From the NCBI GenBank assembly GCA_017650365.1, contig JAGCEZ010000056.1:1-58557 (forward strand): a DNA stretch of 58,557 nucleotides, given 5' to 3'. Numbering within the stretch: the first letter of the stretch is position 1; each line of letters starts with the position of its first letter. This DNA is from Fibrobacterales bacterium (GTDB taxonomy: Bacteria > Fibrobacterota > Fibrobacteria > Fibrobacterales > CADBQJ01). Both the position numbers and the translations under genes were made by a program. This document shows positions 30,834 through 39,424 of this stretch, piece after piece. The notes below the pieces were generated by a model, which saw nothing but the letters and a program-made list of their open reading frames with translations, did not search any database and was not told where the DNA came from.

Positions 30834-32930
<2,097 letters not shown>

Positions 32931-33314
32931 GCCGCTGGCGAATTTCATGCCTAAATATCCATTCGAAACGGACTTTAATCGATTCTTGAACGGCTGTTCG
33001 CGGGCGAAGGCCGGGTTTGCATTTCCGGAATTCCCGGAACGGATTTGTCAAGAGGAAAATGACGAATTTTTTTTGTGGCCAGAATGTGGATAGATTGTCG
33101 GACTTCGCGTGACGAAAATGTGGATAAATGTGAACAAAACGATGCGCTCAAAAACCTCGATCGAAACCGGCCTTGTCCAAAGCGGAAAAATGTGGCGTTT
33201 TTGCGCTGAAAAACGTGTTTCCCGATGAAAAGGCAAAAAGGCCGTCCGCTCTCCGATTTCCTTTACTAGATTTCAAAAAAGCCGGAGACAAGCCATTCAG
33301 GCCCGGCGTGAGGA
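32931..33314. other. Intergenic DnaA-box region upstream of dnaA (candidate oriC or dnaA control region)
   Basis: A 384-nt gap with no gene, clearly more AT-rich than its surroundings. It holds a perfect DnaA box TGTGGATAA (33119-33127), a one-mismatch box TGTGGATAG (33085-33093), a weaker TGTGAACAA (33129-33137), and a T8 run (33067-33074). A further TGTTGATAA lies inside the start of dnaA (33323-33331). A small inverted repeat TTCCGG-AATTC-CCGGAA (33023-33039) precedes them. The boxes are in one orientation and closely spaced, as in an origin or an autoregulated dnaA promoter. Strand skew, which would decide between these, cannot be judged by eye. Confidence 0.6.
33267..33274 (+). promoter_or_regulatory. 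Putative -10 element of dnaA
   Basis: TAGATTTC, 40 nt before the ATG at 33315 and about 130 nt downstream of the DnaA boxes. The leader would be about 35 nt. Confidence 0.45.
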
Positions 33315-34742
33315 ATGGGGATTGTTGATAAGATGTCGATAGAAGCCAAAGCGCTGGAACCGCTCGAATCCGCTTGGGGACGGATTCTGGACTCCTGGAA
33401 GGAGTCGCTGGGCGCTTTCGCCTACGGCACCTGGATCGCGGGCTGCAGCCTCCTCCGCGAAACGCCGGACGGGACGCTGGTCGTCGGCCTGGCCTCCCAG
33501 TTCCACTGCGACTACTGCCGCCGGATGCGCGAACGCCTCCTCCTGGCCGCCGGCGAAGTCCGTCCCGGGCTCGCCTCGATCGAGTTCGAGGTCGATTCCT
33601 CGCTGGTCCCGCCGCAGCCCCGGCCGGAGTGCCCCGAAATCCCGTCCGTGCGGATCGAGCCCGTCGTCCCCGACCAGCGCGCCCCGCGCGGCGAGCGTCC
33701 TCCCTTCCGCGACGGCTTCACGTTCGCCGAGTTCGTCGAGGGCGAAGCCAACGAAATGGCGCTGAACGCCTGCCGGCAGGTGGCCGAGAACCCGGGCGCC
33801 GAGGGCCTCAACCCCCTGATCGTCTACGGCGGCTCCGGCCTCGGCAAGACCCATCTGCTCCACGCCCTGGGCCGCCAGGCCTGGGAGACCCGCGCCGTCG
33901 AGCGCGTGGCGATCCGCACGGTCGACCAGCTCGTCGCCGGCCTGGCCGAGACGGCGCGCCGCGGGCTCTCCGTCGGACAGCGCTTCGCCGACTACCTCCG
34001 CGCCGGGCTGGTCCTCGTGGACGACGTCCAGCTCCTGCCGAAGAGCGGCTGGGTGCACGACCAGTTCGCCGAGCTCTCCCGGCTCCTGATCTCCCGCGGC
34101 GTCCAGCTGGTCGTCACGAGCGACAAGCCCCTCTCCGAGCTCCAGTGGGCCGACCCGCAGCGCTTCCGCCACATGAAGGAGGGGATGGCGCTGGAGATCG
34201 GCAACCCCGACAGCCGGCTGCGCCTGGAGATCCTCCGCCAGAAGCTGAAGACGACGTGCCCGGACGCGGGGCTCTCCGACGAGGTGCTGGAGTTCGTCTC
34301 CGAAAACGACTTCGGCAACGTCCGCGAGCTGGAGGGGGCGCTCCTCAAGCTCGCGTTCCACGGCCGGATGCTGGGCTCGGAATGCACGATCGACATCGCG
34401 CAGAGCATCCTCGCCGACAGCGTCCGCGACAGCCGCCAGACCCTGACGCTGGAGATGATCGCCGCGGAGACCGCCCGCTGCTTCGGCCTGACGGTCGAGC
34501 ACCTCAAGAGCAAGAGCCGCCGCAAGGAGTACGTCACGGCGCGCAAGGTCGCGATGCACCTGGCGCGCACGCTCCTCGACCAGACGCTCCACTCGATCGG
34601 GTTCTACTTCAACCGCGACTACTCCACGGTCTCCAGCTCCATCGACACCGTCGAGGCCGCGATGGCGCTCGACCCCGACTTCGCGAACCGCGTCGAACGC
34701 CTCCGCGACCGCCTGGTCGCCCTCCGCAGCCTGGGCGAATAG
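33315..34742 (+). CDS. dnaA: Chromosomal replication initiator DnaA (divergent)
   Basis: A 475-aa AAA+ initiator that binds DnaA boxes and opens the origin. Domain I is seen in WGRILDSWKESLGAFAYGTWI. Walker A GGSGLGKTHLLHALG is at about residues 172-186, Walker B LVLVDDVQLL at about 233-242, and domain IV includes ARKVAMHLARTLLDQTL and RDYSTVSSSI (about 434-443). Two features differ from the norm. The DNA-contact signature RDHTTV reads RDYSTV. The box VII arginine-finger segment, usually RLxSRFxxGL, reads QRFRHMKEGM (about 282-291). The ATG at 33315 is used, but MSIEAKALE at 33333 is a possible alternative. dnaN does not follow; the tol-pal operon does. Confidence 0.92.
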   Translation: MGIVDKMSIEAKALEPLESAWGRILDSWKESLGAFAYGTWIAGCSLLRETPDGTLVVGLASQFHCDYCRRMRERLLLAAGEVRPGLASIEFEVDSSLVPPQPRPECPEIPSVRIEPVVPDQRAPRGERPPFRDGFTFAEFVEGEANEMALNACRQVAENPGAEGLNPLIVYGGSGLGKTHLLHALGRQAWETRAVERVAIRTVDQLVAGLAETARRGLSVGQRFADYLRAGLVLVDDVQLLPKSGWVHDQFAELSRLLISRGVQLVVTSDKPLSELQWADPQRFRHMKEGMALEIGNPDSRLRLEILRQKLKTTCPDAGLSDEVLEFVSENDFGNVRELEGALLKLAFHGRMLGSECTIDIAQSILADSVRDSRQTLTLEMIAAETARCFGLTVEHLKSKSRRKEYVTARKVAMHLARTLLDQTLHSIGFYFNRDYSTVSSSIDTVEAAMALDPDFANRVERLRDRLVALRSLGE

Positions 34743-34811: not shown

Positions 34812-35519
34812 ATGCAGGAATTCTCCGTCTCCCATCTCGTCTTCGGCTCGGGCGCCTTCTCGATCGTCATCGTCGGGCTGCTCGCGGCGACCTCCTTCGT
34901 CAGCTGGGGGGTGATCCTCCGCAAGATCCTCCTCCAGAGGAAGACCGCCCGCGCCAACGCCCGCTTCCTCGCCCAGTTCCGGAAGATCTCGCACTTCGCC
35001 GAGCTGCAGAACCTCTGCAAGGACGAGAAGGAGCCCTGCCCCCTGCGCGCCATCTCCAAGGGGATGCTCGTCGAGGCGAGCAAGCTCTCCGGGCGCGTGA
35101 GCTACGACAACATCCACCACCGCGCCGAGCTGATCGAGGAGAGCGCGCAGCGCTGCGTCGAGACCCAGCGCGTCGTGGACGCGAAGTACAACGGCTTCCT
35201 CTCCGTCGCCGCCAACCTCTCGCCCTTCCTCGGGCTGCTCGGCACCGTCTGGGGCATCATGGACAGCCTCTGGTCCATCGGGAAGCACGGCTCCGCCGAG
35301 CTCGTCGTGGTGGCCCCCGGCATCGGCGCCGCGCTGGTGACGACGATCGCGGGCCTGCTGGTCGCCATCCCCGCCTCCGGCGCCTTCAACCTCTTCTCCA
35401 TGCGGACGAACCGCAACGAGGTCTTCTACACCAACTTCGGCTCGCACGCGCTGGCGATGTTCAAGCGCGACGAGCTCGCCGCGGTGGAATCGGCCCAGGC
35501 GAAGGGAACCGCCGAATGA
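34812..35519 (+). CDS. tolQ: Tol-Pal proton channel subunit TolQ
   Basis: A 235-aa MotA/TolQ/ExbB-family protein forming the proton channel with TolR. Three membrane helices are seen: AFSIVIVGLLAATSFVSWGV at the N-terminus, then FLSVAANLSPFLGLLGTVWGIM (about residues 133-154) and APGIGAALVTTIAGLLVAIPA (about 172-192), the last with the conserved TT. First gene of a complete tolQRAB-pal-cpoB operon. It uses proton-motive force to pull the outer membrane inward during division. It overlaps tolR by ATGA. No Shine-Dalgarno precedes the start, in line with a leaderless message. ExbB is the alternative name, but the downstream genes settle it. Confidence 0.93.
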   Translation: MQEFSVSHLVFGSGAFSIVIVGLLAATSFVSWGVILRKILLQRKTARANARFLAQFRKISHFAELQNLCKDEKEPCPLRAISKGMLVEASKLSGRVSYDNIHHRAELIEESAQRCVETQRVVDAKYNGFLSVAANLSPFLGLLGTVWGIMDSLWSIGKHGSAELVVVAPGIGAALVTTIAGLLVAIPASGAFNLFSMRTNRNEVFYTNFGSHALAMFKRDELAAVESAQAKGTAE

Positions 35520-35941
35520 AGAGACGTCCCCGCCGCGAGGATCCGCACGCGGAGCTCAACCTCACCAACCTGATCGACGTCGTCTTCGCGATCCTCGTCG
35601 TCTTCATGATCACCGCGCCGATGATGACGCGCGGCGTGAAGGTGGACCTGCCGAAGACCGAGGCGCCGAGCCTGGAGGAGAAGGAGCTGCTGCGCGTGAC
35701 GGTGGACCGGAACGGCTCGATTTTCGTGGGGCAGAGCCAGGTGGACCTCGAGGGGTTCGGCGACGAGCTGCTCCGCCAGTGGGACGGCGAGTCCCCGGTG
35801 GCGATCAACTCCGACGAGAACGTCCCCTACGGCCGCGTGATGAAGGTCGTCTCCCGCGCGCAGGCGCTCGGGGTGACGAAGGTCGGATTCCTGACCGCCG
35901 AGGACCTCGAGCGCGAGAAGGGGCGCGGAGGGCGGCGGTGA
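35516..35941 (+). CDS. tolR: Tol-Pal proton channel subunit TolR
   Basis: A 141-aa ExbD/TolR protein. It has one membrane helix with the proton-carrying aspartate (NLIDVVFAILVVFMITAP, Asp about residue 21) and a periplasmic domain ending VTKVGFLTAEDLE. MTRGVKVDLPKTEAPSLEEK is the typical linker. It starts 4 nt inside tolQ and ends 4 nt inside tolA (GTGA), so the three genes are translationally coupled. Confidence 0.93.
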   Translation: MKRRPRREDPHAELNLTNLIDVVFAILVVFMITAPMMTRGVKVDLPKTEAPSLEEKELLRVTVDRNGSIFVGQSQVDLEGFGDELLRQWDGESPVAINSDENVPYGRVMKVVSRAQALGVTKVGFLTAEDLEREKGRGGRR

Positions 35942-36801
35942 TCCGCGCCGAGGCGAGCGAGGACTTCGGCTTCGGAAACGGGGACGACGCGGCGTTCCGC
36001 GGAATCGTCCTCTCCTCCCTGGCCTTCCACGCCGCCCTGGCCGCGCTGATCGCGCTGGGGTTCCTGCTGGCCGGCGGAAAGAAGCAGAAGGAGTCGATGG
36101 CGCTGGTCGAGCTGGTGCAGGTCGCGCAGCCGGCGCCGCCCGCCCCGGAGGTCGCGCCCGAACCGCCCGGGAGCCCGGAGCCGAAGCCCGCGAAGGCGGA
36201 GCCGGCGCCGGCGGAACCCGCGCCCGCGCCGAAGCCCGAGGCCAGGCCCAAACCCAAGCCGCAGCCGAAGCCGGAAGTCAAGCCCGAACCGAAGCCGGAG
36301 GTCAAGCCGGAAGTCAAGCCCGAGCCGAAGCCGGAACCCAGGCCCGAGCCGAGGCCCGAGGCCGCGCCCGCCGTCGCGAAGACGGACGACGCGGCGCCCC
36401 GCGAAAAACCCGACTCGCTGAAGACCGCGTCGGGCATGGACCTCCCGACGTTCGCGCCCAGGCGGTCGAACAGCTCGCCCTCCGCGGCGGGCGTCGTCGG
36501 CGGGCGCGCGACCGACGGCCGCGTCAACGCCTACAACGCGCAGATCAAGGCGGCCGTCGAACCCCGCTGGACCCCGCCCGTGGTCGAGGGCGTCGCGCCG
36601 GGCACGCGCGCCGTGGTCTCGTTCGTCATCGGGCGCTCCGGCGCGCAGGGCGCGGTGTCGCTCGCGAAGAGCTCCGGAAGCCCCGTCCTCGACCAGCTCG
36701 CGCTGCGCGCGGTGAACCTCGCCAAGTTCCCGCCGCTCCCGCCCGCGATCGAGGAGGATCCCTATCCCGTCAGCTACGGCTTCGTCTACGAGGGACAATA
36801 G
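35938..36801 (+). CDS. tolA: TolA/TonB-like periplasm-spanning protein
   Basis: A 287-aa protein in the tolA position. The start is a GTG at 35938 that overlaps the tolR stop; no ATG gives a sensible N-terminus. It has one membrane helix (IVLSSLAFHAALAALIALGFLLAGG), a long Pro/Lys/Glu-rich spacer (about residues 65-150), and a C-terminal TonB-type domain (YNAQIKAAVEPRWTPP, VVSFVIGRSGAQGAVSLAKSSG, LALRAVNLAKFPPLP). In E. coli TolA the spacer is an alanine-rich helix; here it is an extended KPEx repeat as in TonB. Location in the operon supports a Tol function. Confidence 0.87.
   Translation: MIRAEASEDFGFGNGDDAAFRGIVLSSLAFHAALAALIALGFLLAGGKKQKESMALVELVQVAQPAPPAPEVAPEPPGSPEPKPAKAEPAPAEPAPAPKPEARPKPKPQPKPEVKPEPKPEVKPEVKPEPKPEPRPEPRPEAAPAVAKTDDAAPREKPDSLKTASGMDLPTFAPRRSNSSPSAAGVVGGRATDGRVNAYNAQIKAAVEPRWTPPVVEGVAPGTRAVVSFVIGRSGAQGAVSLAKSSGSPVLDQLALRAVNLAKFPPLPPAIEEDPYPVSYGFVYEGQ
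36241..36360 (+). repeat. Tandem Pro-Lys-Pro-Glu codon repeats in tolA
   Basis: About ten degenerate 12-nt units encode PKPE/VKPE/PRPE motifs in a row, making a stiff extended rod across the periplasm. The unit changes from lysine to arginine toward the 3' end. Confidence 0.85.
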
Positions 36802-36805
36802 AATC

Positions 36806-38089
36806 ATGGCAAAAAGAACAACCGTCCCGCCGCTCCGGACCGCCTTCGCGCTCCTCCTCTGCGCCGCGATCGCCTCTCCCGCCTCCGCCGAGGAGAACTA
36901 CATCGAGTCCTCCGCCGGCGCCGGCGCCATCGCGCTCGGCATGCTCGACATCTCGCAGGAGGGGAGGGGGACGCTCTCCGAGGACCTGAACTCCGTCCTC
37001 GTCCACGACCTCGAATGGCCCGGGCGGTTCCGCGTGCTGCGCTCCGCGCGCGTGGAGAAGTCGCGCTGGACCGCGGAGAACGTCTTCAGCTTCGTCCACG
37101 GCAGCTATTCGGTCTCGGGCGACTCGCTCCTGCTGGAGCTCGAGCTCTCCGACCTCGTCTCCATGCGCACGGTCCCGGGCATGAAGCGCGTCTGGAAGAT
37201 CCACAGGAAGCAGGCGAGACGCGCCGTGCACGAGTTCGCCGACATGCTGGCGAAGCAGTTCTACGGCGAGGAGGGCGCCGCGACCACCAAGGTCCTCTTC
37301 GTCCGCCGCGGCGGCGGGAAGCGCGAGATCTGGATGATGGACTACGACGGCGCGAACGCCCGCCAGATCACGAAGGACGGAAACGTCGCGATGCTCCCGG
37401 CCTGGTCCGCGGACGGGAAGACCGTCCACTACAGCAGCTTCCTCGACGGCCACGCCGCGCTCCGCACGATCGGCCAGGGACGGTCCGCCTCCGCGCCGCT
37501 CACCCCGAAGGGGGTCCACGCCTACGGCGGCCGCGAAAGCCCCGACGGGACGAAGACGGTCTACGTGCGCGAGACGGGCTCCTCCACCGACCTGTGGCTG
37601 ATGGACATGAAGACGGGGAAGAGCGAGAGGCTCACCTTCCACTCCGCCACCGAGACCTCGCCGGACTGGTCCCCGAACGGCGAGAGCGTCGTCTTCACCT
37701 CCGACCGGGGCGGGCGCCCGCAGCTCTACACGATCGGCGCGGACGGCTCCGGCGAGGAGCGCCTCACCTTCACCGGGACCTACGTGGAGAGCGGGGTCTG
37801 GTCCCCCGCGGGCGACAAGGTGGCCTACTGCGCGATGACGGAGGGGCAGTTCAGCCTCTTCGTCCTCGACCTGGCCACGGGCGAGACCGCGCAGATCACC
37901 TCCGGGCGCGGGAACGACGAGTCCCCGAGTTGGTCTCCGGACGGCAGAATGATTATTTTCGCTTCTGACCGCACGGGCGTTTCGCAGCTCTACCTGATCC
38001 GCCCGGACGGAACCGGACTCGTCCAGCTGACGCGCGAAGGGAACAACGCGGCGCCCCGCTGGTCCCCCGGAACGCAGAAAAAGGAGTAA
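36806..38089 (+). CDS. tolB: Tol-Pal beta-propeller protein TolB
   Basis: A 427-aa periplasmic protein that links Pal and the inner-membrane Tol complex. Signal AFALLLCAAIASPASA. The N-terminal TolB domain (about 25-150) has SEDLNSVLVHDLEWPGRF, and a six-bladed propeller follows with repeating WSPDG-type blades: LPAWSADGKTVHYSS, SPDWSPNGESVVFTSDRGG, SPSWSPDGRMIIFASDRTG and APRWSPG. Stop is TAA. It starts 4 nt after tolA, and pal begins 3 nt after its end. Confidence 0.95.
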   Translation: MAKRTTVPPLRTAFALLLCAAIASPASAEENYIESSAGAGAIALGMLDISQEGRGTLSEDLNSVLVHDLEWPGRFRVLRSARVEKSRWTAENVFSFVHGSYSVSGDSLLLELELSDLVSMRTVPGMKRVWKIHRKQARRAVHEFADMLAKQFYGEEGAATTKVLFVRRGGGKREIWMMDYDGANARQITKDGNVAMLPAWSADGKTVHYSSFLDGHAALRTIGQGRSASAPLTPKGVHAYGGRESPDGTKTVYVRETGSSTDLWLMDMKTGKSERLTFHSATETSPDWSPNGESVVFTSDRGGRPQLYTIGADGSGEERLTFTGTYVESGVWSPAGDKVAYCAMTEGQFSLFVLDLATGETAQITSGRGNDESPSWSPDGRMIIFASDRTGVSQLYLIRPDGTGLVQLTREGNNAAPRWSPGTQKKE

Positions 38090-38092
38090 GCC

Positions 38093-38638
38093 TTGAAGAC
38101 GCTGAAAACCCTCTCCATCCTCTGCCTGTCGCTCCTCGTGATGGCGGGCTGCGCGAAGAAGCCCAACGCCGTCGACGCCGAACAGAGCGCCGACGCGGCC
38201 GCGGGCGGGAACCAGGCCGCCCTCTCCGCCGAGGAGCAGGCCGCCGCCGACGCCGCCGAGCTCGAGAAGAAGAAGGCCCGGCTGCAGGAGCTGCTCGACC
38301 GCATCATGGCCGAGGACATCTACTTCGACTTCGACCGCTCCGCCATCACCGAACAGGCGAAGTCGCTGCTGAGCGAAGTCGCCGAGATCATGGTCTCGGA
38401 AAAGCGCTTCGAGCTGGTCATCGAAGGCCACACCGACGAACGCGGCACCGAGAGCTACAACATGAGCCTCGGCTCCAAGCGCGCCAAGGCCGTCCAGCAG
38501 TTCCTCGCCGACCTCGGCGTGGGGACGGAGCGGCTGACCACGATCTCCTACGGCGAAGAGGCCCCCAAGGTCGAGGGCTCCGGCGAAGAGGCCTGGTCCA
38601 AGAACCGCCGCGCCCACTTCAAGGTCAACGTCCGCTAG
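38093..38638 (+). CDS. pal: Peptidoglycan-associated lipoprotein Pal
   Basis: A 181-aa outer-membrane lipoprotein. The start is a TTG at 38093, supported by AAGGAG 6 nt upstream and by the lipoprotein signal that follows (TLSILCLSLLVMAGC). The C-terminal OmpA domain that binds peptidoglycan diaminopimelate is clear: IYFDFDRSAITEQAKSLL, IEGHTDERGTESYNMSLGSKRA (split here by family motifs TDERG and LGSKRA), ISYGEEAPKVEGSGEEAWSKN with NRRAHFKV at the end. It works with TolB in outer-membrane constriction. Confidence 0.95.
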   Translation: MKTLKTLSILCLSLLVMAGCAKKPNAVDAEQSADAAAGGNQAALSAEEQAAADAAELEKKKARLQELLDRIMAEDIYFDFDRSAITEQAKSLLSEVAEIMVSEKRFELVIEGHTDERGTESYNMSLGSKRAKAVQQFLADLGVGTERLTTISYGEEAPKVEGSGEEAWSKNRRAHFKVNVR

Positions 38639-38656
38639 CCCGCGGAGACCGAAGAG

Positions 38657-39424
38657 ATGGCGTTCTCCGCGAAATCCGCCCTCCGCGCGGCCTGCCTGGC
38701 CGCCCTGGCGCTCTCCCTCTCCGGGTGCGCCGAGATGCTGGGCATGGAGTCCAAGCAGCTCACGCGCGCCGAGGCCGCCCTCGCGGCCCGCATCGACACG
38801 CTCCAGGCCCGGGTCGACTCCCTCCAGAACGAGCTGGCCAAGGCCGCGCGCCGCAACCAGGCCGACCTGGCCGCGCTGCAGCGCGCCGTCCAGGAGGGGA
38901 ACGACGCGATCGCGGCGCGGATCGAGGAGAACACATACGCCATCTCCCGGAGCGCCGCGAAGCCCGCGCCCGCCGCGCAGCCCGAAGGGAAGAAGAAGGC
39001 CCAGACGCCCGCGCAGGCCGCCGCACCCGCCGCCTCCCCGGCGCCCGCCGGCGAGGAGCTGGAGAAGCTCTACAACATGGCCCGCGCCGACTTCAACGCG
39101 CAGCGCTTCCAGGAGGCCTACCAGGGGTTCAAGTCGGTCTACGAACAGGCCCCCGAAGGCCGCCGCGCCGAGGACGCGCTCTACTGGATGGGTCTCTGCT
39201 TCGAGAAGACCTCCCAGCCCGACGCCGCGCTGGTCGTCTACCGCCAGGTGCTCGACGCCTTCCCGCAGGGGAAGAAGTCCTGCGCGGCGCGGTTCCAGAT
39301 GGCGCGGATCGCCGAGGCGCAGGGCAGGGCCGACGAGCGCCTGGAGCTGTTGCGGCAGCTGGCCGGAGAACCGGTCTGCGCCAACTCCAACGAAGGGCGC
39401 CGCGCGGCCGAAATGCTCAAGTAG
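38657..39424 (+). CDS. cpoB: Tol-Pal system lipoprotein CpoB (YbgF)
   Basis: A 255-aa protein, last of the tol-pal operon. The N-terminus has a lipobox (LAALALSLSGC), unlike E. coli CpoB, which is soluble. A coiled-coil trimerisation region follows (about 30-100; AARIDTLQARVDSLQNEL), then a Pro/Ala-rich linker, then three TPR repeats in the typical YbgF end (KLYNMARADFNAQRFQEA, AEDALYWMGLCFEK, RFQMARIAEAQGR). CpoB coordinates PBP1B with Tol during division. GGAGA precedes the ATG. Confidence 0.92.
   Translation: MAFSAKSALRAACLAALALSLSGCAEMLGMESKQLTRAEAALAARIDTLQARVDSLQNELAKAARRNQADLAALQRAVQEGNDAIAARIEENTYAISRSAAKPAPAAQPEGKKKAQTPAQAAAPAASPAPAGEELEKLYNMARADFNAQRFQEAYQGFKSVYEQAPEGRRAEDALYWMGLCFEKTSQPDAALVVYRQVLDAFPQGKKSCAARFQMARIAEAQGRADERLELLRQLAGEPVCANSNEGRRAAEMLK

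Follow-up and report, generated by a model that had tools for sequence, protein, structure and literature searches.

A divergent second DnaA of Fibrobacterota in which the arginine finger has repeatedly been lost

Nearly the whole phylum Fibrobacterota, including the fibre-degrading Fibrobacter of the rumen, keeps two DnaA proteins, and according to sequence alignments one of them has repeatedly shed the arginine finger, a residue held to be essential for assembly. A gene of this second type was found in the window analysed here, a stretch of 58,557 nucleotides from a Fibrobacterales bacterium. The canonical DnaA is called copy A (DnaA-A), and the window-type DnaA is called copy B (DnaA-B). 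DnaA-B is a natural test of the purpose of the arginine finger and of whether an initiator with unlike subunits can work in bacteria.

Results and discussion

Identity and motifs of the window protein

The open reading frame of dnaA-B is intact and encodes a complete DnaA-family protein (Table 1). The Pfam domains Bac_DnaA (100 bits) and Bac_DnaA_C (68 bits) are both detected above their cut-offs, whereas the score for the DnaA equivalog TIGR00362 is 287.1 bits, which is below the cut-off of 343.9. Domain I is kept in copy B of the window type, besides the DnaA-type DNA-binding domain. In the AlphaFold2 model (mean pLDDT 85), the protein shows the DnaA fold, and a short helix (residues 285-289) runs across the box VII stretch. 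The best structural matches of the model are the DnaA entries 8btg, 1l8q, 2hcb, 8bv3 and 2z4r. Two other identities were considered and rejected. The protein is not Hda, because it scores only 49.5 bits against the Hda profile TIGR03420 (cut-off 194.8) and has Bac_DnaA_C, domain IV being present. The gene is not a pseudogene, because the reading frame is intact and copy B is under purifying selection.

Residues were mapped with an alignment of 84 sequences including E. coli DnaA. In this alignment, Arg281, Ser284 and the finger Arg285 of E. coli DnaA correspond to Gln282, Arg285 and His286 of the window protein, respectively. Box VII also aligns to B. subtilis DnaA without a gap. The gap-free alignments to both model proteins confirm the proposal of the earlier note that the finger position is occupied by His. 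With Walker A, Walker B and the sensor 2 Arg all present, the window protein has the residues of a DnaA ATP site. At the finger position of box VII, His is found instead of Arg, and an adjacent Arg remains.

Table 1. Features of the dnaA-B locus, in coordinates of the window
Feature	Position	Strand	Remarks
uvrB	30834..32930	+	Upstream neighbour of dnaA-B
TTGTCAAG, recurrent -35-like element	33045..33052	+	Precedes the box array in the window's order
Degenerate DnaA-box-like unit TGTGGCCAG (+ strand)	33074..33082	-	
DnaA box CTATCCACA	33085..33093	-	One mismatch; TGTGGATAG on the + strand
Perfect DnaA box TTATCCACA	33119..33127	-	The 2.08 Mb assembly has only three exact copies, including this one
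DnaA-box-like unit TGTGAACAA (+ strand)	33129..33137	-	
DnaA box TTATCAACA	33323..33331	-	TGTTGATAA on the + strand; one nt before ATG 33333
dnaA-B, divergent second DnaA	33315..34742	+	First reported as 475 aa; 469 aa from the likely start, ATG 33333
Walker A GGSGLGKTH	33828..33854	+	Intact; alignment
Walker B Asp-Asp (D236-D237), within VDDV	34020..34025	+	Intact; alignment
Box VII QRFRHMKEGM	34158..34187	+	H286 (34170-34172) in place of the arginine finger; R285 directly precedes H286
Sensor 2 Arg R337 (E. coli R334), within NVRELEG	34323..34325	+	Intact; alignment
Helix-turn-helix signature RDYSTV (E. coli RDHTTV)	34614..34631	+	Copy-B clade signature; alignment
tolQ-tolR-tolA/tonB-tolB-pal and TPR protein	34812..39424	+	Downstream neighbours of dnaA-B

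Two DnaA copies in the phylum

The genome of the window also carries a full-length dnaA on another contig, C118. Its product has the box VII sequence RLVTRFQGGL and the signature RDHSTV, and it scores above the DnaA equivalog cut-off. The earlier note had treated the window gene as the cell's own DnaA and had proposed a search for a second one. Since this search found a canonical dnaA, the result named there as speaking against it, that reading has to be dropped.

Two full-length DnaA proteins, A and B, are present in nearly all of the 58 Fibrobacterota genomes sampled. In a wider sample, DnaA was detected in 149 of 151 genomes of the phylum, mostly with two or more matches, and each of 25 genomes from other phyla has a single full-length DnaA. 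In the tree of both copies, A separates from B, and the host classes recur within each part. With outgroups from other phyla, copy B forms one clade (support 96/89; 98% of bootstrap trees), and the placement of copy A among other DnaA proteins is not resolved in this tree. These results indicate that the pair is probably older than the last common ancestor of Fibrobacterota. Judging from the trees, copy B is inherited vertically, and either a duplication or an early acquisition is allowed as its origin. The window protein groups with copy B, has Tyr at the position of E. coli His434, and its gene is preceded by DnaA boxes on one strand, as is typical of this clade.

A WOR-3 outgroup sequence (L188) falls weakly next to copy B, and its genome (G158) encodes a second DnaA-like AAA+ protein at C3:176879-177586, which matches in the AAA+ part only (179 bits). 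In genome G135, the copy A match on contig C21:45039-46329 is in two pieces, owing to a frameshift or an assembly error.

Selective loss of interface residues in copy B

The ATP site of copy B is almost invariant. In E. coli numbering, K178, T179 and D235 are each kept in 94/94 sequences, and D236 and the sensor 2 residue R334 are each kept in 87/94. The interface residues are kept far less often, namely the finger R285 in 39/94, R281 of box VII in 14/94 and R227 of AID-1 in 7/94; many of the 94 sequences belong to one genus, and these counts are thus not independent. In copy A, R285 and L290 are found in 39/39 sequences, R281 in 37/39 and R227 in 30/39. The domain I residue W6 is kept in 92/94 copy-B proteins. 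On the copy-B tree, the state of the finger changed at least six times, versus one change for R334. The finger is intact in copy B of the deep classes and of several Fibrobacterales genera. According to these alignments, copy B in the window's class has repeatedly lost the arginine finger together with other residues that lock protomers to each other. Copy A, in which every motif is kept in most genomes, is by the same comparison the orthodox initiator.

The earlier note had left room for a shift by one residue that would rescue the finger. Such a shift is possible in the window protein, in which Arg285 directly precedes His286 and might substitute for the finger. Among the 55 finger-less copy-B proteins, however, 50 have no Arg at all at E. 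coli positions 280-288, which excludes a rescue by a register shift; the five exceptions include the window protein. A basic residue at position 284 is found in the window protein, its sister and f4. Seven sequences had suggested that such a residue stands in for the lost finger in general, but this rule failed on 94 sequences and was rejected.

The signature RDYSTV had been read correctly in the earlier note as differing from RDHTTV. It is not a local alteration, because most copy-B orthologues have it. Tyr at E. coli position 434 occurs in 79/94 copy-B proteins and in no copy A, and in a named multi-phylum sample of 78 proteins it is limited to members of Fibrobacterota. At another contact residue, E. 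coli R399 (minor groove), Gln is found in 44/94 copy-B proteins, including those of many Fibrobacter genomes (e.g. the copy-B genes L037 and L039).

Several lineages depart from the general pattern. In the seven copy-B sequences of g8/g12, which are extremely divergent, sensor 2 and Walker B D236 are lost too. Copy A of these genera (L054 and L056, and loci in G075, G095 and G107) is also strongly changed. Its match spans only the AAA+ domain onward, and stops often lie directly ahead of this part. In the two sequences read, neither the sensor 1 Asp nor the sensor 2 Arg is kept. Both DnaA proteins are unusual in these genera. In family f7, Walker B D236 and the sensor 2 Arg are missing from copy A (L080 and L082; genomes G003 and G044), but the finger is kept. 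Copy B of the same two genomes (L081 and L083) keeps the ATP-site residues and is thus complementary to copy A, which would fit mixed filaments. Copy B of G001 and G015 has an insertion directly before box VII.

Selection on copy B

The dN/dS ratio of copy B is 0.06-0.21 where dS is unsaturated, which indicates purifying selection; dS is close to saturation in several pairs, and the values are therefore rough. The pair of the window and G089 is unusable for dN/dS owing to high GC. In the window's order, copy B evolves faster than copy A (identity between G001 and G015 of 48.7% for B versus 87.1% for A). In two deep-class pairs, copy B is more conserved than copy A (80.5 versus 76.1% and 80.7 versus 73.6%). 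The faster evolution in Fibrobacterales could partly reflect relaxed constraint.

If this relaxation were the whole explanation, DnaA-B would be a paralogue heading for loss in Fibrobacterales, and the finger losses would be drift. The rate difference in this order and the g8/g12 sequences, with further changes in Walker B and sensor 2, are what such a process would produce. The dN/dS values and the intact frames of the copies read argue against it, and so does the pattern of change: Walker A (94/94) and the sensor 2 Arg (87/94) are kept despite the loss of the finger, which is selective rather than even decay. In addition, the box array described below is kept in the same lineages, and copy B is found in nearly all sampled genomes. 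We consider drift towards loss very improbable.

DnaA boxes at the promoter of dnaA-B

The earlier note had pointed to near-perfect DnaA boxes upstream of the gene. They are indeed present: TGTGGATAA at 33119-33127 is an exact box, and the boxes at 33085-33093, 33129-33137 and 33323-33331 have the same orientation. The last of these is followed by one nucleotide and an in-frame start codon, and this arrangement of box, 1 nt and ATG recurs in 14 copy-B genes including that of the window. From this recurrence, 33333 is more likely to be the start codon than 33315.

Boxes were counted with at most one mismatch and compared with the expectation from base composition. Upstream of 43 copy-B genes, 70 boxes were found versus 4.3 expected, and 67 of them lie on one strand. 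At 50 further copy-B loci, which were outside the set used for pattern discovery, 43 boxes were found versus 5.4 expected, 42 of them on one strand. Upstream of copy A, no comparable array was found (7 versus 3.2 expected). Just downstream of copy A, 31 boxes were found versus 2.5 expected, mainly in the deep classes, where this region is the gap between dnaA and dnaN. DnaA is known as a transcription factor and autoregulator (PMC8203912). The promoter boxes of dnaA-B, with their common orientation, are typical marks of DnaA-controlled expression and suggest autoregulation.

These boxes also bear on a reading of DnaA-B as a DnaA-derived transcription factor, which would act outside replication, regulating genes through DnaA boxes with an ATP switch and having no need for filaments. 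An array at the promoter of dnaA-B itself is expected from such a factor, as is the loss of interface residues with the ATP site and the helix-turn-helix kept. The altered DNA contacts (H434Y, plus R399Q in many Fibrobacter copies) and the known regulatory activity of DnaA (PMC8203912) point in the same direction. However, in sequence these boxes (TTATCCACA and TTATCAACA) resemble ordinary DnaA boxes, and such boxes also occur at the origin gap of copy A, so that A and B probably share sites. Domain I, which is used in helicase loading, is also kept (W6 in 92/94). A role purely in transcription is therefore regarded as possible, though somewhat unlikely.

Genomic setting and the position of the origin

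The tol-pal side next to copy B is common to 7-8 genomes of the window's class. Copy A of the deep classes is flanked by a divergent rnpA-yidD-yidC block on one side and by dnaN on the other, these neighbours being named from sequence without a profile search. In the window's genome, which consists of 126 contigs, the genes dnaN, rnpA, dnaA-A and dnaA-B are spread over four contigs, and the GC skew across the window has no clear switch at dnaA-B. In G033, a single-contig Fibrobacterales genome, the GC-skew switch is at about 1.42 Mb, copy B at 2.39 Mb and copy A at 0.79 Mb. In G020, a weak switch is located at copy A and not at copy B. The idea that copy B marks a relocated origin is thus unsupported by the GC skew of G033 and G020. 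The region of G033 contig 1 around 1.41-1.43 Mb (L124 and L135) contains the skew switch, DnaA-box-like sites at 1,415-1,423 kb and neither dnaA gene, and is a candidate oriC. The 136 kb that follow the switch showed no cluster of boxes.

The skew data weigh on the possibility that DnaA-B is a second initiator, acting at another origin or conditionally at oriC, with another contact such as R285 replacing the finger in the window's order. The protein is full-length with all four domains and the DnaA fold in the model, the deep classes and several genera of Fibrobacterales keep the finger, and the DNA upstream is AT-rich with an origin-like box density. The basic residue at position 284 of the window protein, its sister and f4 would suit a substitute contact. 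On the other hand, copy B lies away from the skew switch in both G033 and G020, 50 of the 55 finger-less proteins have no Arg at 280-288, and finger mutants of three other DnaA proteins are unable to separate strands (PMC8287927). A second initiator is thus quite improbable.

Proposed role of DnaA-B

In E. coli DnaA, ATP-dependent head-to-tail assembly requires the finger R285, while stable complexes and helicase loading require R281 (PMC5742627). The finger mutants of three DnaA proteins still bind a nucleotide analogue, without strand separation (PMC8287927). On this basis, a natural DnaA with an ATP site and without a finger should be poor at self-assembly and able to accept the finger of copy A. 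We therefore favour, at about even confidence, a role of DnaA-B as an autoregulated, ATP-binding paralogue with a modulating effect on DnaA-A, such as the capping of its filaments.

In the proposed mechanism, DnaA-B would bind ATP and DnaA boxes, but would by itself build a DNA-opening filament only poorly. It would share boxes with DnaA-A. At its own ATP site it would take the finger of A and offer none onward, and would thus end or weaken the A filament. The DnaA protein level or ATP state would set the level of DnaA-B via the promoter boxes, in some genomes including the box at the start codon. Because copy B of the deep classes keeps the finger, capping cannot be the ancestral role, and the role may differ between lineages. 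The earlier note had suggested modified oligomerisation or DNA opening. Oligomerisation is the property most likely to be changed, and nothing supports origin opening by the window protein alone.

A bolder proposal is that Fibrobacterota initiate replication with a mixed filament, in which A contributes the finger and B contributes an ATP site, often without a finger in Fibrobacterales, so that B marks the end of the filament and sets the time of origin opening. We regard this as unlikely. If true, multi-subunit initiators and clamp loaders would have a bacterial counterpart in the mixed DnaA filament.

Comparison with known systems

The window protein resembles the canonical DnaA of E. coli, B. 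subtilis and T. maritima in domain order, AAA+ fold, Walker A and B, sensor 2 and helix-turn-helix. Unlike these proteins, it has neither the arginine finger nor an equivalent of Arg281, has Tyr for His434, scores below the equivalog cut-off and is not the sole DnaA of its genome. Hda is likewise a DnaA-related AAA+ protein and is thought to act on DnaA. It has no DNA-binding domain, whereas the window protein has Bac_DnaA_C.

Several DnaA paralogues within a phylum are already known from Chlamydiae (DnaA1 and DnaA3; PMC4989314). There too, more than one DnaA is kept across a phylum, but the phylum is a separate one, and the likeness noted here is in copy number. Our literature search for Fibrobacter DnaA and for DnaA copies, with most subscription journals outside its coverage, returned no description of the A/B pair or of a recurrently finger-less DnaA. 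Within the literature searched, a pair member that recurrently lacks the finger appears to be new.

A further parallel is offered by the engineered finger mutants S. elongatus R261A, H. pylori R298A and D. radiodurans R264A (PMC8287927). These are also DnaA proteins without a finger, and nucleotide binding is kept in the mutants tested. In DnaA-B, by contrast, the loss of the finger is natural, arose several times and stands beside an intact copy.
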